From contig JAABSX010000027.1 in NCBI GenBank assembly GCA_011390205.1, forward strand, positions 1 to 53,423: DNA of 53,423 bases. The letters are read 5' to 3'. Below the pieces are notes generated by a model. That model made no database searches. It was not told the origin of the DNA and saw only the letters and a list, made by a program, of their open reading frames with translations. This document shows positions 1,457 to 46,782 of the stretch, piece after piece. Source of the stretch: Microscillaceae bacterium. Lineage in GTDB: Bacteria > Bacteroidota > Bacteroidia > Cytophagales > Microscillaceae. A program made the position numbers and the translations under genes. Each line of letters starts with the position of its first letter. The first letter of the stretch is position 1.

Positions 1457-4252
1457 CTATCGTTGTATTATTCTCATTCCTCCTCTGCTAGAGAATCCTG
1501 AGGTGGGATTAAGAGCTTTATTAAGGTTATAGGTAAAGCTTATCATAAAATAGCGGTTAAGATTCTGGACAGTGTTTTGCTCCAAGAAGTTAATCTGTGC
1601 ATTTTGGCTTGCCCCTATATTCCTGTCTAATAAGTTTTGAATGGTAAATTTTAGCTCACCCGCTTGGGCTTTGAGGATAAATTTAGAAATAGACAGATTC
1701 CAAAGTGGAATCGCCTGCTCAAAATCAGTAGTAGTGCTGTTATAAACCAAATAATCAAAGACTGTATTGAGGTTAAACCCTAACGGAAGTGTAAGATTAG
1801 CATCAGCGGTATAAGTTTGGTTCAAAAACTGCTGATTTTGGTTTTCATCAAAGGCATAGCGGGTCGTCTGATTGCTTAGGTTGGCACTTAGTGAAAGATT
1901 AAATTTTTCTTCCAATGTATATTCATATCTCAATGTGCCACCTAAGATATTTTGGGTAATCTGGGTTTCTTGGTCATTTATAAAATTAAAACCTTCTGTA
2001 AGTGAGGTATTACTGCTGATATTGATTCTGCTTTTGAGTTTTTTGATAGGAAACCCAAAATTAATATTGCCATTGATTGTGAGGTTATCCTTTACATTGC
2101 GAGGGGTAGTAGTTCTTACTCCTTCATTATCAAAGGTTTGTGCATTGATAATGGCATGGGTGCTATAGACAGCATTGACAGTAGCAAAGAAATTGACAAA
2201 GTTAATGGCATCAAAGCTAAAATAATTTGCATTGATTTGATGTCTATAGGCAGGGCGTAGCTGAGGATTACCTACATATAGATTGAGTGGATCTCTATTG
2301 TCTATCACGGGTTGTAGTTGAGAGATGCTGGGCTCTTGCACCGAAGTCTGATAATTGAGACTTAGTCTTTTGAAGTTAGAAAAATCATAATTAAAACGCA
2401 TATTGGGCAGAAGATTGGTAAAATCACGCTTTACCTCACTATCCAATAAAGGAAACTGACCTTCTAGGTGAGAGTGTTGCAGACTTAGCCCTGTAGCAAA
2501 GTTGTATTTTTTGTGATTAAATCTTAGATTAAACCCTCCTTGATGGTAGTAATAGTCATTTTGATACTGATTACTTAGGGCATTGTTAAACTCCTCACGG
2601 CCATCTATTTGATCAAAAACACCTCTATTTACCTTGTTTTCATTCTTGCGATAAGCATAATTTAGCTCAAGATATTTTCGTCTTCCTATAGGTTCGGTGT
2701 AAGAGAGATTCCCTCCATAACTAAGGCTCTCATTGTCTTGAGTATTTCTCTGGTCAAATATATCTGTTCTTGGGTTATTCCTATAATAAGTATTGTTTGA
2801 TTTTAAGAAACCATCACTATTTTGGTTGTTTACCTCAAAAAGCACATTGGTAGAGAGTGTGCGTCCAGCCTTGCGAAAGCGATGACGGAATAATAAATTT
2901 GCATTTAGATGAATGCTATTTCCTTCCGAACCACTGAGTGTTTCCCCTTCATTGAGCAATACATCTTCAGCACTTTTATTTTGATTATCTGTATTGCTAT
3001 TTTGGCGTGTATCACTGTAATTGAGCGAGGTAGTCAGTTTGAGAGAGTTTAGAGAGTCTATCTTATGGTCTAGCGTTAAGTTTAATCTATGGTTGTCGTT
3101 TTGATTTAGTTGTTGGCTATTTTGGTTAAAAATAAGATCCCCTGTAGGCAAAAAGTTCTGCCTTAAGACTGTCTGATTGATATCGTGGTCAATATGGTTA
3201 TAAAAATAACTACTGTTGATTTCTGTTTTGGGGTTAAATTGATGATTTACATTCATTCCACCAGCCCAGTTGGTCATAATTCCGCTAGGCTGCCCACCAA
3301 AGTTGAGAGGTACGCCTCCACTATTATCACTATTGAATTGCACTCTGACACGTCCGCCTCCTCCTATATTCTGCGAGCCTCCCGTGAAGTTAAGGTATTC
3401 ACCAATGTCAAAGCCTTGTTGATTAATATTATTGCCCATTCCTAAGATAGAAAACTGAGTTTTGGCAGCAAATCGGTGAAGGCTCAACTTGCTTTCATAG
3501 CGTTCGTTTGTGCCTAGCCCAGCCATCACATTACCAAAAAAAGCTTTCTTATTTTTGTCTTTCAGTGTGATATTGATAGTTTTTTCCCTTTGTCCATCAT
3601 CAATACCTGAAAAAACAGCTTGGTCAGACTTTTGGTCAAACATCTGTAGTTTGTCCACAGCATCAGCAGGAAGGTTTTTAGTAGCTATTTTGGGGTCTCT
3701 TCCAAAGAATTCTTTTCCTTCTACCAAAACTCGTTGCACGGTTTCACCTTGTACTTTGACAGTGCCATCACGCTGTACTTCTACTCCGGGAAGTTTCTTG
3801 AGCAAATCTTCTACACTTCCATTGGGCTTTACGGCAAAAGAACCTGCATTAAACTCTATGGTATCTCGCTTGATGGTTACAGGATTTTTTTCACCCTCTA
3901 TCACTATATCATTCAGTATTTTACTGGCGGTTTTCATGCGGATAGTTCCCAAATCAATTAAAAGCCCATTTTTTGGTGAGATGGGAGTAGTATAATTTTG
4001 AAAACCTATAAAAGTAACTTTTAATAGATACTCATTATTTGGATTAATATTTTTAAGTTCAAAAAAGCCTTTTTCATTGCTTCTGCTAAAGTGGGCAAGC
4101 GAGGAGTCACTGGCATCGAGGAGCATCACTGTAGCAAACTCTAAGGGCTGTGCCGTGGAGTCTGTCAGTATTCCTTTGATAGTAAGTTTTTGTCCCCAAG
4201 CTGAAGTACTAAGACAAAGAATAGCAAAAGATAAGATAATAAATTTTTTCAT
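1457..4252 (-). CDS. Outer-membrane receptor-like beta-barrel protein with carboxypeptidase-regulatory-like N-domain
   Basis: The 931-residue protein starts with a signal peptide (MKKFIILSFAILCLSTSAWGQ). Residues about 22-105 form a carboxypeptidase-D regulatory-like beta sandwich (LTIKGILTDSTAQPLEFATV), about 107-225 resemble a TonB receptor plug (VEDLLKKLPGVEVQRDG, VLVEGKEFFGRDPK), and the rest is rich in alternating polar and aromatic beta strands like the outer-membrane barrel family typical of Bacteroidota. I see no clear TonB box. The last barrel-like strand (RYFMISFTYNL) is followed by an unusual polar extension ending GGMRIIQR. The GLPGLI gene lies 63 bases upstream on the same strand, so the two are probably co-transcribed. 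The ligand is unknown; uptake or surface sensing of a peptide or small molecule is inference. Confidence 0.88.
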   Translation of the reverse strand: MKKFIILSFAILCLSTSAWGQKLTIKGILTDSTAQPLEFATVMLLDASDSSLAHFSRSNEKGFFELKNINPNNEYLLKVTFIGFQNYTTPISPKNGLLIDLGTIRMKTASKILNDIVIEGEKNPVTIKRDTIEFNAGSFAVKPNGSVEDLLKKLPGVEVQRDGTVKVQGETVQRVLVEGKEFFGRDPKIATKNLPADAVDKLQMFDQKSDQAVFSGIDDGQREKTINITLKDKNKKAFFGNVMAGLGTNERYESKLSLHRFAAKTQFSILGMGNNINQQGFDIGEYLNFTGGSQNIGGGGRVRVQFNSDNSGGVPLNFGGQPSGIMTNWAGGMNVNHQFNPKTEINSSYFYNHIDHDINQTVLRQNFLPTGDLIFNQNSQQLNQNDNHRLNLTLDHKIDSLNSLKLTTSLNYSDTRQNSNTDNQNKSAEDVLLNEGETLSGSEGNSIHLNANLLFRHRFRKAGRTLSTNVLFEVNNQNSDGFLKSNNTYYRNNPRTDIFDQRNTQDNESLSYGGNLSYTEPIGRRKYLELNYAYRKNENKVNRGVFDQIDGREEFNNALSNQYQNDYYYHQGGFNLRFNHKKYNFATGLSLQHSHLEGQFPLLDSEVKRDFTNLLPNMRFNYDFSNFKRLSLNYQTSVQEPSISQLQPVIDNRDPLNLYVGNPQLRPAYRHQINANYFSFDAINFVNFFATVNAVYSTHAIINAQTFDNEGVRTTTPRNVKDNLTINGNINFGFPIKKLKSRINISSNTSLTEGFNFINDQETQITQNILGGTLRYEYTLEEKFNLSLSANLSNQTTRYAFDENQNQQFLNQTYTADANLTLPLGFNLNTVFDYLVYNSTTTDFEQAIPLWNLSISKFILKAQAGELKFTIQNLLDRNIGASQNAQINFLEQNTVQNLNRYFMISFTYNLNKALNPTSGFSSRGGMRIIQR

Positions 4253-4315
4253 GGTATATGGTTTTATTTTTTGATAAAGGCTTTCTAATTCATAGAGACT
4301 TAGAATTTTTCTGCT

Positions 4316-5047
4316 TTAATTTCTTATGATTCTCATTCCATTAGGGTTTTGTTTTCTAAACTCTTCTATGACTTCTTTAAATTCGGCTTCAGTTACAGTT
4401 TTGCCACCTGAAGGGATTTTAAGCTCATTCTTTTTGAGTGTGCGGTAGTTGATTTCTATTGCCGATACAGTCAGTTCGCCCTCATTAATATCTACCTCTA
4501 AAATAGCTCCTGGCAAAGAGTGAAATTTATCAGGCCCAATAGACATAAACATACTCTCAGCATACCAAGCACTGATGCTTTGGATAGCTTCTGGATTGTC
4601 TTTGTTTTCAAGAGTAGCTTTGCGGCAGACTAGCCCTTTGATGGTTTTGGTTTCATCAGAGATTTTCCAAGAGGGAGCTTTGAGCGTATCTTGGATTAAA
4701 AACTTCTTACCTATCAGGTCACGTTGTTCTATCTTCTTGTCATCTGCAAAATCAAGATAAACTTCACTTTGAGGAAATCTAAAACGTCGCATTCCTCCGC
4801 CTTCGATTTCTTCTTCTGTGTCTTCTTCTAAGGTGGTATAAAAAGAAATATTGGGTTTGAAGAATAACTGTGTTTTGAAAGTCTGAAACTCAGGAAGCAT
4901 ACTTTTTAACTCTGCTCGCTCTGCGGGGATGCGGCGGTGCATATTGATTTTTACTTCATAAGTAATTAGGCCTTCATCTTGGTTTTGGGCAAATAAATTT
5001 GTAGAAGCAAAGAGGCAAATCATTAAAAAAATCAGTGAATTTTTCAT
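4316..5047 (-). CDS. GLPGLI-family secreted protein
   Basis: The chosen start (ATG at 5047, 243 residues) begins a good signal peptide, MKNSLIFLMICLFASTNLFA; a longer frame to 5110 only adds 21 residues and puts the signal out of place. The family signature appears as SLPGAILEVDINEGELT at about 178-194, a variant of the GLPGLI motif, preceded by the typical block on conversion of residues in the mature protein (SAWYAESMFMSIGPDKF). Function of the family is not established; it is exported and commonly encoded beside a Bacteroidota outer-membrane barrel, as here. The C-terminus ends NGMRIIRN, almost the same as the tail of the downstream receptor. Promoter-like TAGCTTTG lies upstream on the minus strand. 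Confidence 0.85.
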   Translation of the reverse strand: MKNSLIFLMICLFASTNLFAQNQDEGLITYEVKINMHRRIPAERAELKSMLPEFQTFKTQLFFKPNISFYTTLEEDTEEEIEGGGMRRFRFPQSEVYLDFADDKKIEQRDLIGKKFLIQDTLKAPSWKISDETKTIKGLVCRKATLENKDNPEAIQSISAWYAESMFMSIGPDKFHSLPGAILEVDINEGELTVSAIEINYRTLKKNELKIPSGGKTVTEAEFKEVIEEFRKQNPNGMRIIRN

Positions 5048-5085
5048 GGTAATAAAGTTAAATGGGTTTAAAAATTTTGACAAGG

Positions 5086-5093
5086 CAAAGCTA
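5086..5093 (-). promoter_or_regulatory. Putative -7 box for the GLPGLI/receptor operon
   Basis: On the minus strand the sequence reads TAGCTTTG, matching the Bacteroidota primary-sigma -7 consensus TAnnTTTG. It lies 38 bases before the GLPGLI start at 5047. No clear -33 TTTG was seen at the usual spacing, so this rests on the -7 box alone. Confidence 0.4.
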
Positions 5094-5180
5094 ACAGGCA
5101 TTTTTAGCAAGTATGGTTAATCAAACTTTAAACAAGGTTAAAAATAGTTAATAGATTCTGCCCTTCCTATCAGAAAGATT

Positions 5181-5188
5181 TACCTTTG
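5181..5188 (+). promoter_or_regulatory. Putative -7 box of the kinase/regulator operon
   Basis: TACCTTTG matches TAnnTTTG and ends only four bases before the kinase ATG at 5193. The usual distance from the -7 box to the first transcribed base would put the start at or beside the ATG, which would make the mRNA leaderless. The -33 region (ttctg near 5156) is a weak match. Confidence 0.45.
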
Positions 5189-5192
5189 GGAT

Positions 5193-6731
5193 ATGAAAAA
5201 AATAAATCAAAAATATACCTTTGTCTTTTTGCTGATGAGCTTAAGTATGATTTTGCTTGTGCTTTTTCAAGGATTCTGGCTTCGGAAGATTTATGAAGAA
5301 GAGTGTAGGGTATTACAAAAAGAGACAGATAGCATTTTTCAGAAAGTATTGTTTGAAATGCAAGATTCTGTCATCCAGAGAAGCATCGAGTCTATCAAAG
5401 TACAAGGCTTAGAAGAGGGAGATTCTCTTTTAAATATTCCTATCAAAGAAATAGAAGCAGTAAAAATGGATGATTCGCCTCCAGCCTATCTTTGGCAGAA
5501 TAAAGAACGATTTAGACTCAGAAGAAAGGAGCTTAGCTTTGCTATAGATTCTTTGCGTGAAAAAGGGCTGACCAAAAAATCAGATTCGCTGTATGACCAA
5601 CAGGTTAAAATTTTTATCAAAACAAATGATAAAAAAGAAAAAGATAGCCAACAAATGATTCAACATATCCTCCGAAATAGAGAGATGCATCGTTTTATTG
5701 TCCAATTAAAAAATACAGATTCTTTAAGATTAAAAGAGGTTAAGCAAAATTATCAAAAAGCATTACAAACTGCTAGGATTGACTTACCTTTTCGGCTTTA
5801 TCGCTATGAGTCAATCAAAGATAAACCTCAGTTAACAGGGATTTTTACAGAACCCTTTGAGAGCCTTCCTCCCAAAAAAATCTTCTTCTTGGCAGATATT
5901 CAAGAGTATCAATTTTACATTTTTCAAAAAACTTGGCTCAATTGGGCTTTTTCACTCTTTTTGATTGCCATCACTGGAGGCTCTTTTTACCTTACTTGGA
6001 GGGCATTGATACAACAGCAACGCCTAGGAAATCTCAAAAATGAATTTATAGGCAATGTAACCCACGAACTCAAAACCCCTGTCTCTACCATCAGTGTAGC
6101 TATAGAGGCATTGCAAAATTTTAATATCTTAGAAAATCCTACACGTACTCAAGAGTATTTAGAGATTTCTAAAAATGAGCTTAATCGCTTGAGTATTTTG
6201 ATAGATAAAATCTTGAAAACAGCAATGTTTGAGAAGAAAGGTCTTACTCTCAAGCGTGAGCGAATCCAGATTACGGAGTTAGTAGGGCAAATCTTAAATT
6301 CTCTCAAACTACTCTTTGAAAAACATGGAGCAAAAGTGCATTTTACACAGTCAGGAGAGCATTTCAGAATAGAAGCAGATGCCGTCCACCTGACCAATGT
6401 AATCTATAATCTGATAGACAATGCCTTAAAATATAGCCCTGATACTCCCGAAATTCATTTACACTTACAATCTGATGACCAGCAGGTAATGCTTTCGGTA
6501 GCAGACAAAGGCATAGGAATTTCACCAGAATATCAAAAAAAAATCTTTGAAGATTTCTTTAGAGTGCCTACAGGAGATTTACACAATACTAAGGGCTATG
6601 GTTTAGGATTAAGCTATGTAGCCAAAGTAATTCAACAACACTCAGGCAAAATCACATTAGATAGTGAGATAGGCAAAGGCTCTTGTTTTCAGATTTATTT
6701 ACCTCTGGGCTTAGATATTTTACCCTCATAA
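5193..6731 (+). CDS. Membrane sensor histidine kinase
   Basis: 512 residues. A first membrane span is at about 10-29, a periplasmic charged sensor region at 31-247 has no recognised fold, and a second span is at about 249-270. The dimerisation/phosphoacceptor box is GNVTHELKTP with His291. The ATPase domain shows the N box (NLIDNALKYSP, 406-416), G1 (DKGIGIS, 438-444) and G2 (GYGLGL, 468-473). This is a complete HisKA-HATPase kinase without HAMP or PAS. The response regulator follows after 16 bases, and the receptor/GLPGLI pair is divergent, so the kinase may sense a state of the envelope or the receptor ligand and control that operon. The link is inference from position. Confidence 0.92.
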   Translation: MKKINQKYTFVFLLMSLSMILLVLFQGFWLRKIYEEECRVLQKETDSIFQKVLFEMQDSVIQRSIESIKVQGLEEGDSLLNIPIKEIEAVKMDDSPPAYLWQNKERFRLRRKELSFAIDSLREKGLTKKSDSLYDQQVKIFIKTNDKKEKDSQQMIQHILRNREMHRFIVQLKNTDSLRLKEVKQNYQKALQTARIDLPFRLYRYESIKDKPQLTGIFTEPFESLPPKKIFFLADIQEYQFYIFQKTWLNWAFSLFLIAITGGSFYLTWRALIQQQRLGNLKNEFIGNVTHELKTPVSTISVAIEALQNFNILENPTRTQEYLEISKNELNRLSILIDKILKTAMFEKKGLTLKRERIQITELVGQILNSLKLLFEKHGAKVHFTQSGEHFRIEADAVHLTNVIYNLIDNALKYSPDTPEIHLHLQSDDQQVMLSVADKGIGISPEYQKKIFEDFFRVPTGDLHNTKGYGLGLSYVAKVIQQHSGKITLDSEIGKGSCFQIYLPLGLDILPS

Positions 6732-6747: not shown

Positions 6748-7443
6748 ATGTTAATACAAAAAGCAAAAATACTGTATGTAGAAGATGAGATTTTTCTAGG
6801 AAAAATTGTAAAAGATAGCCTAGAGTCTCGTCAGTTTGAGGTCATGATGATGACTGATGGCAAAGGTGTTTTAGAGGCTTTTGAGCAGTTTAAGCCTGAT
6901 ATCTGTGTGCTAGATGTGATGCTTCCTTACAAAGATGGCTACACTATAGCCCAAGAAATCAGAAAAAATAACCCCGCCATGCCCATCATATTTCTGACTG
7001 CCAAAAGCCAAACCGAAGATTTGTTAAAAGGATTTCAAGTAGGAGGCAATGACTTTATTCGTAAACCTTTTAGCTTAGAAGAACTCATCGTGCGGATTCA
7101 AAACCTACTTCAGCTGACGAACAAAAAAGAAAACAAAGTGCTGAAACAAGAGCATCAATTGGGACAATATACCTTTCACCCCAAACGCTATGAACTACAC
7201 CATAAAGAGCAAGTCCGCAAACTCTCACACCGTGAGACCGAACTTTTAAAAATATTTGCAGCCAGCCCCAATACCATCATTGAGCGCAAAGATATTCTGA
7301 TGAAAGTATGGAATGATGATTCTTTTTATAACTCTCGCAACCTTGATGTCTATATCACCAAGCTCAGAGATTTTTTGAAAGATGATCCAGATGTACAGAT
7401 TATCTCACTCAAAGGAGTAGGCTACCATTTTTTGGTAGGCTAG
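6748..7443 (+). CDS. OmpR-family response regulator
   Basis: 231 residues. The receiver domain (about 7-120) has the acidic pocket VEDE (11-14), phosphoacceptor Asp56 (VLDVMLP), Thr84 (FLTAKS) and Lys106 (IRKPF). The C-terminal winged helix (about 135-230) shows HRETELLKIF, a recognition-helix region ending VYITKLRDFL and the closing wing GVGYHFLV. It is the cognate partner of the upstream kinase (16-base gap, same strand) and should bind DNA as a dimer after phosphorylation. The divergent receptor/GLPGLI promoter is the most likely nearby target, which is inference. Confidence 0.95.
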   Translation: MLIQKAKILYVEDEIFLGKIVKDSLESRQFEVMMMTDGKGVLEAFEQFKPDICVLDVMLPYKDGYTIAQEIRKNNPAMPIIFLTAKSQTEDLLKGFQVGGNDFIRKPFSLEELIVRIQNLLQLTNKKENKVLKQEHQLGQYTFHPKRYELHHKEQVRKLSHRETELLKIFAASPNTIIERKDILMKVWNDDSFYNSRNLDVYITKLRDFLKDDPDVQIISLKGVGYHFLVG

Positions 7444-7544
7444 GAGGTAATCTTAACAGTAACAATAAGAGCTCATCAGTTTCTTTAATGCCCTCATTCA
7501 TAAGGTTAGGCTTATTGTCATTAGCTTGGATGCTAATTTTATCG

Positions 7545-7606
7545 TACTAGAATTAGAAAAAAGTGGTATACACACCCTCTGGTGCAGGGTGTGCCATTCT
7601 CTAGTA
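7545..7606. terminator. Nested hairpin downstream of the response regulator
   Basis: The inner stem CACACCCT (7571-7578) pairs perfectly with AGGGTGTG (7586-7593) around a seven-base loop. TGG (7564-7566) can pair with CCA just outside it, and the outer arms TACTAGA (7545-7551) and TCTAGTA (7600-7606) are perfect complements. No T-run follows, so it is either an atypical terminator or a structured RNA element. Confidence 0.5.
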
Positions 7607-7734
7607 TTAGCGTCTTCACATATCCACAACAGCAAACTGTTTTGAGCATATCGCTCAAAACATATCTTATGTATCATTTAGACTTAAATATAAAATTCTG
7701 AAATACTAAGATGTGCTTTTCTCGCTTTATAGCA

Positions 7735-7767
7735 AACCCTGACAAAGTTCCGAACTCTGTCAGGGTT
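7735..7767. terminator. 33-base palindrome, likely bidirectional terminator
   Basis: Arms AACCCTGACAAAGTT (7735-7749) and AACTCTGTCAGGGTT (7753-7767) pair over 15 bases with a single A-C mismatch and a three-base loop. It lies 12 bases after the stop of the minus-strand exporter and downstream of the plus-strand regulator. Confidence 0.7.
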
Positions 7768-7778
7768 CAAATGAGTAA

Positions 7779-9542
7779 CTATGCGATTGCCTTATACTGC
7801 ATCTTATGAAGATTTGCATAGAAGCCTTCTTTGAGCAATAGCTCTTGGTGTGTGCCTTGTTCTACGATTTCACCCTTGTCAAGTACCAGTATTTTATCTG
7901 CTTTTTGGATGGTAGAAAGGCGGTGAGCTATCACAATAGAAGTTCGTCCTTTCATGAGTTTTTCTATGGCAGATTGGATAAGTTCTTCTGTCTCAGTATC
8001 TACCGAAGAAGTAGCTTCATCTAGCACGATTACTTTGGGGTCATAGACCATCGCCCTCACAAAAGACACCAACTGACGCTGCCCTACAGAGAGTGTAGCT
8101 CCTCGCTCTTGCACATTGTAGTCAAAGCCTAAATCTAGTTTTTCAATAAATTTACGAGCACCTACTAACTCTGCAGCAGCCAGTATTTTTTCTCTTTCTA
8201 TGTTTTTATTGTTAAGGCTGATATTCTGAGCGATGGTATCCGAAAACAAGAATACGTCTTGCAACACTACCCCTATATTGGTTCTGAGCGACTCTAAATC
8301 ATATTCTTTGATATTTTTTCCATCAAAATAAATTTCGCCCTTGTTGATTTCGTAGAATCGGCTGAGTAAGTTAATCACAGAAGATTTACCTGCCCCAGTA
8401 GCCCCCACGAGGGCAATGGTTTCCCCCTCTTTTACTTCAAAAGAAATGTCTTTTAGCACATAATCTTCTTCTTGGTAAGCAAACCAGACCTTGTCAAATT
8501 TAATCTCTCCCCTTACTTCTTTGGGCTTGTATGTGCCACTGTTGGAGATTTGAGCGTCATCATCTAAAAGTTTCAGGATTCTGTTGGTACTGACCACACC
8601 CAGTTGTATGGTATTGAACCTATCTGCAATCATCCGAATAGGACGGAAAAACAAAGAAATATACATAATAAAGGCTATCAAAGTGCCAAGAGAAACCCCT
8701 TCACTCAAAACGCCTCTTGCACCATACCAGACGAGCAGCCCCATGGCCCCTGCGGAGATAATCTCTGCTACAGGAAAATAAACAGAATAATACATCACGG
8801 CTCTCAAGTGTGCACGGCGGTGTTCTCGGTTGATTTCTTGAAACTTTTGATACTCTACCTTTTCACTTCCAAAAATCTGGACAATGTTCATCCCTGTGAT
8901 GTGCTCTTGCACAAATGAATTGAGGTTAGAAACTGCCACACGGGTTTCGTCGAAGGCTTTTTTAACTTTTTCTTTGAACACATACGTACTCAATAACAAA
9001 AAAGGAAGCAATGAAAGACTGACAAAGGTGAGTTTCCAATTGGTATAAAACATCAGTGCCAAAATAAAGACAATCTGCAGAATATCACCGATGAGGGCAG
9101 CGATTCCTTCTGTAAAGACATTGGAAAGCGTCTCGATGTCGGAGATATTTCTTGTAACTAGCCTGCCTATGGGTGTTTTGTCATAGAATGAAAGCTTAAG
9201 CCGAAGGATGTGCTTATAAAGGGCTACTCTGATGTCTTTGACGATAGATTGCCCTAGCCAGCCTGAGAGGTAGGTGTGCATATACTGCACGTAAGCGTGC
9301 AAAAGAAGGAGGGCAATCATGAGCAGTGTCATGTTTCGCAATCCTTCATAATCGTTGAAAGAAATGTAGTGATTGATGGTGTATTCTATCAAAAAGGGAC
9401 GAATCGGGCCGAGCAGCCCCACCAAGATGGTCAGCAATACAAGCCAAGCAAAATAGGATTTGTAAGGTTTGGCAAACTGAGAGAGCCTTCTGAGGGCACG
9501 CCACTCTAAGATTTTCTCATCTACCTTTTCTTTATCACTCAT
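7779..9542 (-). CDS. ABC exporter, fused membrane and ATPase domains
   Basis: 587 residues, typical for a half-size type I (MsbA/LmrA-like) exporter. The membrane domain (about 25-310) has six hydrophobic helices; the ATPase domain has Walker A GATGAGKSS (380-388), Q-loop VVLQDVF, signature LSVGQRQ (484-490), Walker B VIVLDEA (504-510) and the switch His540 (IAHRLST). It should work as a homodimer in the inner membrane, pumping a lipid or drug-like compound outward. The substrate cannot be read from sequence. truA lies 31 bases upstream on the same strand, so the three minus-strand genes here are likely one operon. Confidence 0.93.
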   Translation of the reverse strand: MSDKEKVDEKILEWRALRRLSQFAKPYKSYFAWLVLLTILVGLLGPIRPFLIEYTINHYISFNDYEGLRNMTLLMIALLLLHAYVQYMHTYLSGWLGQSIVKDIRVALYKHILRLKLSFYDKTPIGRLVTRNISDIETLSNVFTEGIAALIGDILQIVFILALMFYTNWKLTFVSLSLLPFLLLSTYVFKEKVKKAFDETRVAVSNLNSFVQEHITGMNIVQIFGSEKVEYQKFQEINREHRRAHLRAVMYYSVYFPVAEIISAGAMGLLVWYGARGVLSEGVSLGTLIAFIMYISLFFRPIRMIADRFNTIQLGVVSTNRILKLLDDDAQISNSGTYKPKEVRGEIKFDKVWFAYQEEDYVLKDISFEVKEGETIALVGATGAGKSSVINLLSRFYEINKGEIYFDGKNIKEYDLESLRTNIGVVLQDVFLFSDTIAQNISLNNKNIEREKILAAAELVGARKFIEKLDLGFDYNVQERGATLSVGQRQLVSFVRAMVYDPKVIVLDEATSSVDTETEELIQSAIEKLMKGRTSIVIAHRLSTIQKADKILVLDKGEIVEQGTHQELLLKEGFYANLHKMQYKAIA

Positions 9543-10336: not shown

Positions 10337-10696
10337 TTAGGCTTGTGATTTTCTAGCTTTTTTTACTTCTTCGTTTTTTTGATTTCCATCTTCCCACACT
10401 TTAACGGCAATCTCTATGGTATCGTTTTTTTTCTTAGAGGTAATGTCTTGGTATTTTCCTTCTTTTCGGCGGCCAAGTTTTTTTCGGATACTTTTATGCT
10501 CACTTTCATAGCCTAACTCTCTGATTTTCAGTGCTATTTTAAACATCAGTTTGGCTACTTTTTGTTCTTCTTTTTCGGAAACTATTTGATGTTTATAGTT
10601 GATGAGGTTGCCTAGAATCATACTATATTCTTTGGTGCCAGTTTGACGTACATCACCTGGATAGTATTTCCGTTTTTGATTGCTGGATTCGTTCAT
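10337..10696 (-). CDS. Small highly charged protein of unknown function
   Basis: 119 residues, rich in Lys, Glu and Arg, no signal peptide or membrane span. The middle (EEQKVAKLMFKIALKIRELG) looks like an amphipathic helix and the C-terminal third is a basic/acidic low-complexity tail. It starts at an ATG at 10696 and ends 13 bases before truA, which suggests translation from the same transcript. I do not recognise a family; a role in RNA binding would fit the charge but is a guess. Confidence 0.7.
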   Translation of the reverse strand: MNESSNQKRKYYPGDVRQTGTKEYSMILGNLINYKHQIVSEKEEQKVAKLMFKIALKIRELGYESEHKSIRKKLGRRKEGKYQDITSKKKNDTIEIAVKVWEDGNQKNEEVKKARKSQA

Positions 10697-10944: not shown

Positions 10945-11583
10945 ATGAACACATCCACACATCCAATCAAAGAAATTTACATTACTAGGCACGGGCAGAC
11001 AGACTACAACAAGCAGGGAATCGTACAGGGCAGCGGGATTGATTCTGTCCTAAATGAAGTAGGGCTACAGCAAGCTCAGGCATTTTATGAAGCATATCAA
11101 GACATTCCGTTTGACAAAATTTATATTTCTGAACTCCTCAGAACCTACCAAACTGTTGCACCCTTTGCAGAAAAGCGCATTCCGATAGAAAAACACGGAG
11201 GGCTTAACGAAATTAGCTGGGGCAAAAAAGAGGGCAGACCTATCTCACCTGAAGAAGATGCTTATTATTATTTTATGCTCTCAGAGTGGCAAAGAGGAGT
11301 GGTAGATTTGGCAATAGAAGGAGGAGAAAGCCCTCAGCAAGTCTATGACAGGCAAAAACCAGTTTTAGACCTGATACTCTCACGCCCCGAAGAGCAAAAA
11401 GTACTTATCTGTATGCACGGAAGGGCAATGCGTATATTCTTGTGCTTGTTGCTCAATTATGAGATAAAAGAAATGGAGCGTTTTGAGCACTCCAATGTCT
11501 GTCTTTATAAGCTTGTCTATACAGGTTCTATGTTTAGCATAGATACTTACTGTGATGTGGAGCATTTGCGTGAGCTGGTTTAA
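10945..11583 (+). CDS. Histidine phosphatase (phosphoglycerate-mutase superfamily)
   Basis: 212 residues from the preferred ATG at 10945; an earlier ATG at 10918 would add nine residues, but the purine-rich stretch agaaaagaa lies before 10945 and family members usually begin close to the motif. The catalytic signature RHGQTDYN holds Arg15 and His16; the second histidine is in CMHGRAMRIF, and ISELLRTYQT carries the conserved arginine. These proteins dephosphorylate small metabolites or phosphoproteins; the substrate is not predictable here. It overlaps the 3' end of the convergent murG gene by four bases. Confidence 0.88.
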   Translation: MNTSTHPIKEIYITRHGQTDYNKQGIVQGSGIDSVLNEVGLQQAQAFYEAYQDIPFDKIYISELLRTYQTVAPFAEKRIPIEKHGGLNEISWGKKEGRPISPEEDAYYYFMLSEWQRGVVDLAIEGGESPQQVYDRQKPVLDLILSRPEEQKVLICMHGRAMRIFLCLLLNYEIKEMERFEHSNVCLYKLVYTGSMFSIDTYCDVEHLRELV

Positions 11584-12674
11584 GTCTGAATAATTTTCAA
11601 GACTTCCTCAGCGATTTGCCTACTGGCTTTTGGCTTGGCGAGTTTTTGGATATTTTCTGAGAGTATTTTGCATTTGGCTGTATCTGTCAGTAGTTTAAGT
11701 GCTTCACTTACTACCTGGCTGCGTGCCTGTGCATCACCCACAAGGCAAGCGGCCTGTTGTGCTACAAGGCTTTCTGCATTCTTGGTTTGGTGGTCTTCTG
11801 CGGCAGTAGGCAATGGCACGAATACAGTGGGCTTGGCGGCAATACAAAGCTCAGAAACTGCCAGTGCACCTGCCCTAGAAATCACCACATCTGCTGCGGC
11901 ATAGCCCAAATCCATTTCATAGATAAAGACAGTCTTGTGTATGAGCGGATTTTTTGCAAGCTCCTGACTGTCAGGGGTTTCCTGAAAACTGTTTTTGCCT
12001 GTCTGCCATATCAGTTGTACTTCATTTTTTATAAACTGGTCTAGGTGCTGTGCGATGGCTTCATTGATGCTGCGTGCACCTTGGCTTCCGCCCACTACCA
12101 AGATGGTCTTTTTGGCAGGGTCTAATTTAAAATGCTGGAATGCTTTTTCTCTTTTGCCGTGTAGGTCTAGGATGTCTCCTCTGACGGGGTTGCCTGTGAG
12201 GATGATTTTTTCGGCAGGAAAAAAACGCTGCATACCAGGATAAGCGACACAAATCGTCTTTACCTTTTTGGCGAGCCACTTGTTGGTAAGCCCTGCAAAA
12301 GAGTTTTGCTCTTGGATGAGTGCCGGGATTCTGAGCTGTGTGGCAGCATAAAGCAAGGGGCCACTTGCATAACCTCCCACACCTACTACGGCATCGGGCT
12401 TGAACTGCAGGATGATTTTGCGGGCTTCTAGCAGACTGGCTGCGAGTTTGATAGGAAAGCTCAGATTCTGGAGAGTAAGTTTCCTTTGTATGCCACTGAT
12501 GGGCAAGCCTTTGATGGGGTAGCCTGCTTGCGGCACTTTCTCCATTTCCATTTTACCCTTGGCACCCACAAACAGGATTTCGGACTGGGGGTGTATTGCT
12601 TTGAGTTCGTTGGCGATGGCGATGGCAGGGTAAATGTGTCCGCCTGTTCCTCCTCCACTGATGATAAACCGCAT
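11580..12674 (-). CDS. murG: UDP-GlcNAc:lipid I N-acetylglucosaminyltransferase
   Basis: 364 residues, normal for MurG. The N-terminal Rossmann domain begins FIISGGGTGGHIYPA, the acceptor side shows VGVGGYASGPLL and IQEQNSFAGLTNK, and the UDP-GlcNAc site shows VVGGSQGARSINE and VISRAGALAVSELC. It adds GlcNAc to lipid I on the inner face of the membrane to give lipid II. It is the third gene of the minus-strand murD-ftsW-murG set but is separated from ftsW by an unusually long 292-base gap with inverted repeats. Confidence 0.97.
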   Translation of the reverse strand: MRFIISGGGTGGHIYPAIAIANELKAIHPQSEILFVGAKGKMEMEKVPQAGYPIKGLPISGIQRKLTLQNLSFPIKLAASLLEARKIILQFKPDAVVGVGGYASGPLLYAATQLRIPALIQEQNSFAGLTNKWLAKKVKTICVAYPGMQRFFPAEKIILTGNPVRGDILDLHGKREKAFQHFKLDPAKKTILVVGGSQGARSINEAIAQHLDQFIKNEVQLIWQTGKNSFQETPDSQELAKNPLIHKTVFIYEMDLGYAAADVVISRAGALAVSELCIAAKPTVFVPLPTAAEDHQTKNAESLVAQQAACLVGDAQARSQVVSEALKLLTDTAKCKILSENIQKLAKPKASRQIAEEVLKIIQT

Positions 12675-12743
12675 ATGGTATGTATTTTTGATTATTGGAT
12701 AAATGATATGTAAACGGACAGTTAAAAATTACTCAATATACTG

Positions 12744-12890
12744 ATTTTCAATTGCTTATGATTAAATAACAATATAAACTATTTTAGTAGAGGTACTTAA
12801 TTGAAAATAATCGTAACTTTTTGAGGATGTCAGTCAGTGGAGGCTCGAAACCACCTCAGAGATTTCACCCCTACGCCCTTGCAAAAAGTT
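12744..12890. repeat. Two inverted repeats in the ftsW-murG gap
   Basis: ATTTTCAATT (12744-12753) is perfectly complementary to AATTGAAAAT (12799-12808), and AACTTTTTG (12815-12823) to CAAAAAGTT (12882-12890). The second pair encloses a GC-richer segment with its own short stem (GTGG/CCAC around 12837-12853). No ORF is present in the 12675-12966 gap. It may be a miniature insertion or an RNA structure controlling murG; neither is established. Confidence 0.5.
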
Positions 12891-12966
12891 CTCTATCGAA
12901 CAATGTCCATTTTTTAGGTAAAAGACCAATCATTGGCAAATTTACTTAGATTACTTCGCTATTAAA

Positions 12967-14184
12967 TTAGCGAGCTGTATTCTCTGTGGGTTTATTGCCT
13001 TGTATGCTCTTATCTATATCTCCTCTGCTTACACTCAATATAATGCCCAAGGCAATGCCTGTGAAGAGCAATGATGTCCCTCCCATACTCAGCAGGGGAA
13101 GGGGCACACCTGTGATAGGCACTAAACCTACTGCCACCGACATATTGAGCATCGCCTGCAGCCCGATGCTGAAGGTGAGCCCTGCCGAGAGAATCCCCCC
13201 GAAGGCTTGACTCGTACTTGCGACCACCACTATCCCCCGATAAATCAGCAAAAGATACAGCCCAAGCACAAAAAGCCCCCCCAAAAGCCCATATTCCTCT
13301 ATGATGATGGCATAAATAAAATCAGAATAAGGATTGGGGAGAAAGTTTCGCTGGTCACTATTGCCTGGCAGCTTTCCTGTAAGCCCCCCAGTAGCGATGG
13401 CGATGTATGATTGCTCCGCCTGAAATACCGTCTCTTCTGCATTAAAATACTTGTCTATCCTACTCTGAAAAGTACCCATCCGCTGCCCAATGTACATAGA
13501 AAGCATCAGAGAAATGAAACCCACCAACACAAGCAAAGCCAACTGATTGAGCGGCACACGCCCTATAAACATGAGCAAAAGACTTGTAACGAAGAGCATA
13601 ATCGCCGTAGAGATGTCTGAAAGCCCTATGAGTGTGCAGATAATCCCTGTCCAGACCAGCACTGGAAAGATAGTTTCTTGAAAATCATCCACATTTTCTT
13701 GCCTTCTGGAGAGGATGCTAGCTATGCTCGCTATGAGGGCAAGCTTGGCAAGGTCTGAGGGTTGAAAAGTCCCTCCTATGAAAGGAATCGTAATCCAGCG
13801 TGAGGCACTGTTGATATTGGCTCCAAACTTCCAAGCAATCAATAGCAAAGGCACTGATACCAGCAAAGCCACCATAGAAATCCGTGAGTAATAACGGTAG
13901 TCTATCCGATGGCACACCCACACAGCAAGCAAAGCCATCAAGACTGTAGAGGCATGCTTGAATAAATAATGCTCTGTATTGCCATCCATCCGCTTGTATG
14001 CCAGTGAGCCCGTGGCACTATAGACCACCAAGATGCTGAGTAAAGAGAGCGTAACAATAATCCCCCAGATATATAAATCACCCTGAAGGGTTTTCTCTAT
14101 CCAAGTCATGAAAGGATTTTTATCAGCAGCCAGCCTCTTTTGTGTATTGATAGGTCTATTTTCTATGATATTTTCTTCTTCCAT
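12967..14184 (-). CDS. ftsW: Septal peptidoglycan glycosyltransferase FtsW (SEDS family)
   Basis: 405 residues with about ten hydrophobic spans. SEDS landmarks are present: VVYSATGSLAYK after the first span, ASRWITIPFIGGTFQPSDLAKLAL around 125-148, a loop with RMGTFQSRIDKYFN, the stretch NPYSDFIYAIIIEEYG with its conserved acidic residue, and VGLVPITGVPLPLLSMGGTS near the end. It polymerises lipid II at the division site together with a class B PBP. The cytoplasmic N-terminus is longer than in many homologues (about 35 residues). It follows murD by 71 bases on the same strand. Confidence 0.96.
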   Translation of the reverse strand: MEEENIIENRPINTQKRLAADKNPFMTWIEKTLQGDLYIWGIIVTLSLLSILVVYSATGSLAYKRMDGNTEHYLFKHASTVLMALLAVWVCHRIDYRYYSRISMVALLVSVPLLLIAWKFGANINSASRWITIPFIGGTFQPSDLAKLALIASIASILSRRQENVDDFQETIFPVLVWTGIICTLIGLSDISTAIMLFVTSLLLMFIGRVPLNQLALLVLVGFISLMLSMYIGQRMGTFQSRIDKYFNAEETVFQAEQSYIAIATGGLTGKLPGNSDQRNFLPNPYSDFIYAIIIEEYGLLGGLFVLGLYLLLIYRGIVVVASTSQAFGGILSAGLTFSIGLQAMLNMSVAVGLVPITGVPLPLLSMGGTSLLFTGIALGIILSVSRGDIDKSIQGNKPTENTAR

Positions 14185-14255
14185 CTATATTAATTCATTA
14201 ACTGATGATTGTGTGTCTGATTTTGAGAGAGTCTGTGGTCTTTCAGCAATTTAAC

Positions 14256-15629
14256 TTACCTCATTTTTCCTACTCTTTCTATTTTTTTAATCGTATCTTT
14301 AAATTGATTTCCTCTGTCTTCATAGTTTTTAAACAAATCAAAACTTGCACAAGCAGGCGAAAATAAGATAACATATCCTGGCTGTGCAAAGCTAAAAGCC
14401 TGCTCTACGGCATCTCGGATATTATCTGTTTGATAGACAATGTGTAAATCATTCTTAAAGGTATCAAAAAGTTTTCGGTTATCTTTGCCTAGGCATATTA
14501 AATATTTGACTTTTTTGAGCACTAGGTCTTTAATTTTCCCGTAGTCATTGCCCTTATCCACCCCTCCTGCTATCCAGATGATGGGTTCGTCAAAGCTATC
14601 TAGGGCAAAATACACAGAATCTACGTTGGTGGCTTTAGAGTCATTGATAAACTTCACATCTTTTACCACGGATACTTCTTCTAAGCGGTGTGGCACTCCC
14701 TCAAAATTTTTAAAGTAAGTCGTAAGTTCTTTGAGTCTCGCACCTACTTGCACACAAGCAAGCACGGCTGCCATGGCATTGCTAAGGTTGTGTTTTCCTT
14801 TGAGTGGTATTTCTTTGATGTCTATTGTGAAATCTTGCTTTGTTTTTTTGAGGTTAAAGACCAGTTTATCTTCTTTGATATACGCTCCATTTTCTTGATG
14901 TTCTTGGAGGGAGATGGTATAATGTGTGGCAGGTATTTTTCTTTTTCTGATTTCTCGGCTGATGGCTGCATTGTCTTTGAGATAAATAAAATGCTGCTTG
15001 CTGTCAAGATTCTGTGTGATTCTAAATTTTGCATCCACATAAAGCTGAAAGTTATGCTCATAGCGGTCAAGGTGGTCAGGGGTGATATTGAGCAAAATCA
15101 CAATTTCAGGGTTAAACTGATAGCAATCTTCTAGCTGAAAGCTGCTTATCTCCAATACCCAGTAGTCAGGTTTTTCGCTCATTACTTTTTGGGCAAAACT
15201 CTGCCCGATATTGCCTGCCATCCCTACATTAAAGCCACAAGATTTGAGCAAATGATAGACAAGCATTGTCGTAGTGGTTTTGCCATTGCTGCCTGTGATG
15301 GCGATAATCTTGGCAGAGGTGTATCTGGCAGCGAACTCTATTTCGGAGATGATGGGCGTATTGTTGGCTTTTGCTTTGAGCAATATGGGGATGTTACTTG
15401 GGATTCCGGGGCTTTTGATAATCTCATCTGCTGCTAAGATTTTCTCCTCAGTATGTTGATTTTGTTCATACTCAATTTCTTCGGCTTTGAGGATGTTCAC
15501 ATATTTTTCGGTGATTTCGTTTTTGTCTGATAAAAAAACTGAAAAACCCTCAGATTTTGCCAACAATGCAGCTCCTACACCACTTTCTCCACCTCCTAGG
15601 ATGAGCATTTTTTTCTCTGCCTTTGTCAT
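14256..15629 (-). CDS. murD: UDP-N-acetylmuramoyl-L-alanine:D-glutamate ligase
   Basis: 457 residues. The N-terminal UDP-binding domain starts LILGGGESGVGAAL, the ATP site is ITGSNGKTTTT (111-121), followed by VLEISSFQLE, a central-domain LLNITPDHLDRY and the C-terminal KGKHNLSNAMAA and FINDSKATNVDS. It adds D-Glu to UDP-MurNAc-Ala in the cytoplasm. First gene of the cell-wall set with ftsW and murG. The start at 15629 is chosen; an internal ATG seven codons on (MLILGGGESG) is possible. Confidence 0.97.
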   Translation of the reverse strand: MTKAEKKMLILGGGESGVGAALLAKSEGFSVFLSDKNEITEKYVNILKAEEIEYEQNQHTEEKILAADEIIKSPGIPSNIPILLKAKANNTPIISEIEFAARYTSAKIIAITGSNGKTTTTMLVYHLLKSCGFNVGMAGNIGQSFAQKVMSEKPDYWVLEISSFQLEDCYQFNPEIVILLNITPDHLDRYEHNFQLYVDAKFRITQNLDSKQHFIYLKDNAAISREIRKRKIPATHYTISLQEHQENGAYIKEDKLVFNLKKTKQDFTIDIKEIPLKGKHNLSNAMAAVLACVQVGARLKELTTYFKNFEGVPHRLEEVSVVKDVKFINDSKATNVDSVYFALDSFDEPIIWIAGGVDKGNDYGKIKDLVLKKVKYLICLGKDNRKLFDTFKNDLHIVYQTDNIRDAVEQAFSFAQPGYVILFSPACASFDLFKNYEDRGNQFKDTIKKIERVGKMR

Positions 15630-45396: not shown

Positions 45397-46782
45397 ATGA
45401 CGCTTATCAAATCTATATCAGGAATCAGAGGAACTATCGGTGGGAAAAGTGGCGAATGCCTTAGCCCTTTTGATTTAGTAAAGTTTGCATCGGGCTATGG
45501 GTCTTGGCTAAATGAAAGGTCGGAAGCTTCTACAGTCATCATCGGGAGAGATGCACGCCCTACGGGTGAGATGGTTACCCAAATCGTGGCGGCTACCCTC
45601 CAAGCACAAGGGATTGATGTGATAGATTTGGGCTTATCTACCACACCCACAGTAGAGATGGCGGTCATGTTTGAGAAAGCTCAAGGAGGCATCATCATCA
45701 CTGCAAGCCATAACCCTGTGCAGTGGAATGCCCTCAAAATGCTCAATGAGAAAGGAGAATTTCTGAGCAAAGAAGACAGTGAAGAAGTGCTCCGCCGCTC
45801 AGAGGCAACAGAGGAGTTTAGGTATGCAGAGCTTAAAAAACTGGGTACTTATAGGCTAGATGATACATTTCTTCAAAAACACATTGATGCCATCTTGGCA
45901 CTCCCCCTAGTAGATAGAGAGGCCATCAAGACACGAGATTTTAGTGTGGTGCTTGATTGTGTAAACTCTTGTGGAGGACTGGCTTTGCCTCCTTTGCTTG
46001 AGGCGCTTGGGGTGCAGTATGTCCACGAAATGTATTGTGAGCCTAACGGAAATTTTCCGCACAACCCTGAGCCATTGTCAGAAAATCTCACAGACATTTA
46101 AAGAGAAATGCAAAAAGGAAACTATGATTTGGGCATCGTGGTGGACCCTGACGTGGATAGGCTGGCACTACTCTGCGAAGATGGAAGCATGTTTGGTGAA
46201 GAATATACACTCGTGGCTGTGGCAGATTACATACTCCAAAACCAGCCTGGTGCTACTGTTTCTAACTTATCTTCTACCTTGGCACTGCGTGATATCACAC
46301 ACAAAGCAGGGCAGACCTATACTGCCTCAGCAGTAGGTGAAGTAAATGTAGTGGCTAAAATGAAGGAAACCAATGCCGTCATAGGGGGCGAAGGCAATGG
46401 AGGGGTGATTTACCCCGAGCTGCATTATGGGCGTGATGCCTTGGTAGGGATTGCACTTTTCTTATCACACTTGGCTAAATTTGGCAAAACGGCTTCTAGG
46501 CTTAAGGCTACTTTTCCGAGCTACCATATTTCTAAAAATAAAATCTCGCTGACTCCTGAGGTCAATGTAGATGAAATATTGAGCAAGATAGAAGAAAAAT
46601 ATAAAAACCAACCCATTAATACAGAAGATGGTCTGAAGATTGAATTTGATAAATCTTGGGTGCACTTGCGTAGGTCTAATACAGAGCCTATTATTCGGAT
46701 TTATTCGGAGGCTGACTCAGTAATCACTGCTGATAATATTGCCCACAAAATCATGAATGACATCAAAGAGTTTGTAAACTAA
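45397..46782 (+). pseudogene. glmM: Phosphoglucosamine mutase, interrupted by one in-frame TAA
   Basis: The gene is 462 codons long, normal for GlmM, and every motif is intact: phosphoserine loop ITASHNPVQW (Ser104), metal loop DPDVDR (250-255), sugar-binding GGEGNGGVIYPE and phosphate-binding RRSNTEPIIRI near the end. A single TAA at codon 235 (46099-46101) lies between ENLTDI and REMQKGNYD, with the same frame continuing on both sides. GlmM converts glucosamine-6-phosphate to glucosamine-1-phosphate for peptidoglycan, so loss should be harmful unless there is a second copy. Sequence error, readthrough, or a split two-chain enzyme (second ATG at 46108) are all possible. A good promoter precedes it. 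Confidence 0.9.
46099..46101 (+). other. In-frame stop codon within glmM
   Basis: TAA at codon 235 of the glmM frame. A single substitution from TTA, TCA, AAA, CAA, GAA or TAT/TAC would restore sense. A restart at ATG 46108 would give 224 residues including the metal loop and phosphate-binding motif. Confidence 0.93.

Follow-up and report, generated by a model that had tools for sequence, protein, structure and literature searches.

A single in-frame stop codon in the glmM gene of a Microscillaceae draft genome as a probable consensus error

The only glmM-type gene found in the draft genome of a Microscillaceae bacterium (GenBank assembly GCA_011390205.1) is interrupted by one in-frame TAA, which, judged from indirect evidence, is probably an error, so that the cells would make a normal GlmM. 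The gene is located in the window, which denotes here the whole stretch of 53,423 nucleotides that was analysed (contig JAABSX010000027.1). Its frame opens with an ATG at position 45397 of the plus strand and closes with a normal TAA at 46780-46782 (45397-46782 in all); it consists of 461 codons plus this stop, and codon 235, at 46099-46101, is the internal TAA. The single stop had been noted in a sequence-only reading of the window and is confirmed in the sequence. It divides the gene into an N-terminal open frame of 234 amino acids (45397-46101, plus strand), which carries the phosphoserine motif and comprises domain I together with the greater part of domain II, and a C-terminal open frame of 224 amino acids (46108-46782, plus strand), which starts from an in-frame ATG and comprises the remainder of domain II, where the metal loop lies, as well as domains III and IV. 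This ATG, pointed out earlier as a candidate restart soon after the stop, is separated from it by six bases. Over the length of the gene, each of the five alternative reading frames contains 13 to 48 stops, and a frame of 461 codons that is open save for one stop is therefore not a product of chance.

The gene is assigned to phosphoglucosamine mutase by the NCBIfam profile TIGR03990, of whose 444 positions 3-222 are matched upstream of the stop and 227-443 downstream, so that the two halves together cover the profile end to end. The halves score 239.8 and 246.7 bits; the cut-off of 439 applies to the whole protein, which was scored here on halves only. With an X placed at the stop, a Pfam scan recovers the four phosphohexomutase domains PF02878, PF02879, PF02880 and PF00408 in this order, each above its cut-off, and PF02879 (domain II, residues 163-263) spans the stop. 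The cut-off of TIGR01455, the model of the classical bacterial GlmM, is missed (183.5 versus 447.55 bits) and is passed in eight of 14 control genomes. The nearest solved structures carry the names phosphoglucomutase/phosphomannomutase or phospho-sugar mutase, and phosphoglucosamine mutase chains rank lower. The name GlmM is thus a putative one, based on TIGR03990 and on the absence of another candidate gene, and the conversion of glucosamine-6-phosphate to glucosamine-1-phosphate is the predicted reaction.

Four motifs, all on the plus strand, are found in the reading frame: TASHNP (residues 102-107, 45700-45717), which we take to be the phosphoserine motif with S104 as the phosphoserine; DPDVDR (residues 250-255, 46144-46161), which lies beyond the stop and is presumably the metal-binding loop; GGEGNGG (residues 330-336, 46384-46404), presumably the sugar-binding loop; and RRSNTEP (residues 425-431, 46669-46689), in which we recognise the phosphate-binding loop of GlmM. 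Their core residues are invariant in an alignment of 38 sequences, completely so for the first three motifs and in six of seven residues for RRSNTEP. The earlier view that glmM is whole and its catalytic motifs are all intact is borne out by these motifs and by the two halves of one profile. The gene resembles other members of the TIGR03990 family in its full length, its four domains and its motifs, with 76% identity to the nearest relative found, and differs from them in the one in-frame TAA of the deposited sequence.

A stop that serves recoding would be expected to be conserved; however, none of 105 distinct near full-length relatives has a stop at column 235, where serine (62), alanine (30), cysteine (9), isoleucine (3) and threonine (1) are found, and the same holds for all 109 other aligned loci, which include two identical pairs. 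The commonest codon in this column is TCA (20 of the 109 loci), and a single substitution converts TCA to TAA. At the level of whole genomes, 33 of 36 other near genomes have a GlmM-level match, two have a match at the level of phosphoglucomutase only and one has none. No internal stop was detected in the 33; in one of the near genomes (G009) the match is cut at residue 387, and in another (G016) it consists of two pieces that belong to one open frame. In a sample of the order, 371 of 390 genomes match, the genome under study included, and among the best 150 of these 371 matches an internal stop is present in this genome only. In a sample of the phylum, 127 of 128 genomes match, again with the genome under study and its interrupted glmM among them, and none of the 126 others has an internal stop, four natural C-terminal stops being set aside; the four entries had been flagged with one stop each, and the fetched sequences showed these stops to be natural ends, at query positions 458-460. 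The near, order and phylum samples overlap, and some genomes are counted in more than one of them. A natural nonsense codon in glmM was not described among the best-ranked titles of a literature search.

The frame past the stop is undamaged. No further stop, frameshift or relaxed constraint, which would be signs of a pseudogene, was found in glmM. A programmed frameshift was considered and rejected, as inspection by eye revealed no slippery heptamer and 27 and 48 stops, respectively, occur across the gene in the two alternative forward frames. Among 197 columns conserved in at least 95% of sequences, glmM departs at five of 90 before the stop and at two of 107 after it, in keeping with the earlier statement that the gene is free of frameshift and decay elsewhere. 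The total of seven exceeds the mean of the relatives (2.4, with 1.2 on either side of the stop), which counts against an error, although as many departures or more are seen in eight of the 105 relatives. Compared with the nearest relative, the part before the stop is 71.7% identical and the part after it 81.3%. Mean identity of the window protein to the 105 relatives is 62.1% before and 72.5% after the stop, compared with 65.2% and 73.1% among the relatives themselves, and 16 and 35 of the 105, respectively, have lower values than the window protein. On these alignments the first half of GlmM diverges slightly more than is usual, and the part past the stop does not. Decay initiated by the stop would give the opposite pattern.

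The genome (4.51 Mb in 124 contigs, 96.86% complete) was searched with PF02878, PF00408, TIGR01455 and the protein itself. This genome-wide search for a second glmM or pgm, a check suggested by the sequence-only reading, yielded no second glmM; each of the four queries returned the interrupted gene and one phosphoglucomutase of 593 amino acids on contig 29, which is 24% identical to it. An intact glmS is present on contig 80, and three open frames at 11580-15629 of the window are recognised by us as murG, ftsW and murD. The pathway that needs GlmM is therefore present, if these identities are right. GlmM is essential in other bacteria, from which its essentiality is taken over here.

These observations favour a single-base error in the draft consensus, which could have originated from a base call, from the assembly or from a minority variant that entered the consensus. 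In that case the cell would carry an uninterrupted glmM and make one GlmM of 461 residues, which would turn glucosamine-6-phosphate into glucosamine-1-phosphate for the synthesis of UDP-GlcNAc. An error is favoured because the gene is the only one of its type found and its product is needed, as the intact glmS and the presumed murG, ftsW and murD frames indicate, and because the relatives sampled lack the stop, TCA, the commonest codon at this column, is one substitution away from TAA and no decay is seen past the stop. The sequence-only reading had offered four options, namely a base error, read-through, two chains and another mutase; the first is the one we favour, and the other three came out weaker. 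Further support for an error comes from the numbers: 4.0% of random substitutions in glmM yield a stop. In PMC2330054, error rates of 1 to 100 per 100 kb are given as suggested values and one miscall per 88 kb as a measured ceiling. At the latter rate, 4.51 Mb would contain about 51 miscalls, and one or two false nonsense codons would be expected if 0.88 of the genome is assumed to be coding; modern drafts may do better, since PMC2330054 concerns older sequencing. The same source provides a precedent. In version 1.0 of the Vibrio fischeri ES114 genome, glmM (VF_0481) was annotated as two pieces through a draft error, and it is listed there among the genes that were fused once resequencing had corrected a frameshift error. 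In contrast to the present case, in which a nonsense codon is seen in the deposited sequence alone, the V. fischeri error was a frameshift and was resolved by resequencing (PMC2330054).

The position of the stop, 7.3 kb from the contig end and hence in no edge region, counts against an error, as does the cleanliness of the rest of the sampled sequence. The sample consisted of 80 stretches plus the window (1,254,265 bases, 28% of the genome), in which 380 stops are flanked by 60 or more open codons on each side. A codon-pair filter passed 25 of them as candidates, that of glmM included, and a Pfam scan, which displays only the best stretch per family, revealed a family crossing the stop only in glmM; no family crosses the stop in the 24 others, two of which have no match at all. 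The codon-pair filter replaced an earlier single-codon filter, which had been applied to 0.51 Mb and missed glmM; its three candidate stops are not crossed by any family. Both filters ignore stops near frame ends and genes of unusual composition. A scan for start codons detected six of 704 coding frames without a start codon at their head, two of which are known exceptions (prfB and infC); the recovery of prfB with its CTT TGA C site indicates that the scan works. The infC frame, which we recognised as such on contig 48 near position 10632 of the minus strand, has no ATG, GTG or TTG at its head, and rare start codons of infC are known from other organisms. The general error rate looks low since the sampled sequence is otherwise clean; errors thus look rare in the draft, yet a single substitution needs no high rate.

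Some further features of the assembly were recorded. Contig 2, which is 6.4 kb long, contains a Cas2 gene and a RAMP-family gene followed by an AAA ATPase gene (578-1585 and 2953-5637); these are parts of a CRISPR locus, which is probably of type III. No ordinary tRNA-His is among the tRNAs read in the genome, and a 16S rRNA gene was not found by a search that also misses it in five of 14 well-known control genomes. These gaps mark the draft as incomplete and possibly as a metagenome bin.

Could the TAA be real and recent, with enough full-length GlmM being made by low-level read-through or by a suppressor tRNA? The undamaged frame past the stop is what would be expected if full-length protein were still produced, but most of the evidence on decoding speaks against this explanation, which we regard as unlikely. 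Among 42 tRNA-like matches, 40 have a readable anticodon and none of these reads UAA, in a search that scored 150 of 270 first-look candidates; a suppressor could have been missed, since only these 150 were scored and the genome is about 97% complete. The genome has two release-factor genes, one of which is prfB as judged from its frameshift site; the second is taken as prfA. As an ordinary terminator TAA is used most often, closing 293 of the 468 long frames of the sample. RNA folding downstream of the glmM stop is average (z -0.08), and in the 1.25 Mb covered no family extends across any of the 24 other candidates. An alternative code was rejected on the same grounds, only the stop of glmM being crossed by a family among the 25 candidates in 1.254 Mb while TAA is the commonest stop; the genetic code is standard.

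The remaining two of the 42 tRNA-like matches are tandem elements on contig 73 (9998-10379, minus strand), which the ordinary tRNA scan does not call and which were considered as suppressor tRNAs and rejected. They match the Rfam family YrlA with 40.0 and 36.7 bits, below the curated threshold of 69, and a TROVE/Ro60 gene (PF05731, E 2.9e-29) lies nearby at 7263-8783. Because of the Y RNA-like match and the nearby Ro60 gene, the two elements are most likely Y RNAs. A scan that allows introns joined one of them to distant sequence as a doubtful tRNA-His. As an observation in its own right, contig 73 carries a probable bacterial Ro60-Y RNA locus.

The prfB gene itself, on contig 47 (about 11690-11760, plus strand), may be compared with glmM. 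It contains CTT TGA C, which we take to be its programmed frameshift site. Both are essential genes whose frame meets an early stop, near 11750 in the case of prfB. Downstream of the site, however, the prfB frame is shifted, whereas glmM stays in the same frame across its stop.

It is also conceivable that the TAA is real, that translation stops at codon 235 and restarts at the ATG six bases on, and that the pieces of 234 and 224 amino acids assemble. Both halves of GlmM are well conserved, and PMC6728339 describes termination-reinitiation as widespread in bacteria where stop and start codons overlap. However, the residue at the restart, Met238, did not arise as a start, since methionine is found at this position in eight of ten near relatives (all but the loci L010 and L012); across the 105 relatives the column holds valine (43), leucine (30), methionine (16) and isoleucine (16), and Met238 would thus be an ordinary residue. 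In an AlphaFold2 model computed for the read-through protein (mean pLDDT 90.4), residue 235 falls inside the helix 232-240 of domain II, just ahead of strand 245-249 and the metal loop. A split enzyme would be expected to be divided between domains or at a linker, and at the same place in its relatives; here the predicted break lies within a helix, and no split GlmM was seen in the near genomes, the 105 relatives or the phylum sample. In the model, S104 and the metal loop would come to lie on separate chains, and with S104 on the N-terminal and the metal loop on the C-terminal piece, neither piece should be active alone, given the roles that we presume for the motifs. Nothing here shows an adaptation of glmM to production as two chains. 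A natural two-chain GlmM that assembles through a broken domain II and works as an essential enzyme in one bacterial lineage only is very unlikely, and so is the restart that would produce it.

We consider it highly improbable that glmM is truly broken and that the product comes from the phosphoglucomutase of contig 29 or from GlcNAc salvage. The genome does have one phosphoglucomutase, and some such enzymes have a side activity on glucosamine phosphate according to PMC6797236; the same paper states, however, that the B. subtilis phosphoglucomutase PgcA, even in its improved G47S form, cannot replace GlmM and that overexpression of the E. coli PGM did not rescue a glmM mutant. Furthermore, 30 of the 36 other near genomes keep both glmM and a phosphoglucomutase at the search threshold, and the glmM gene studied here is not decaying. 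The least probable explanation is a harmful mutation caught by chance, real but confined to the sequenced strain or to a fraction of the sampled population, which would look identical to an error in a consensus and for which the missing 16S rRNA gene, as a sign of a metagenome bin, would be a weak argument given the five control genomes that lack a hit as well, but where an essential gene is present in one copy only, a nonsense mutation in it should stay rare and not reach high frequency.

A consensus error in glmM thus remains the probable explanation, in which case the TAA base would be wrong, and nothing seen in these comparisons suggests a biological meaning of the stop. A real stop would be striking, because an essential enzyme would then depend on recoding or on a split through the interior of a domain. 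The present case mainly shows that one doubtful base in a draft can mimic recoding, and that a doubtful stop can be judged by comparison with relatives, by the tRNA set and by the remainder of the genome.
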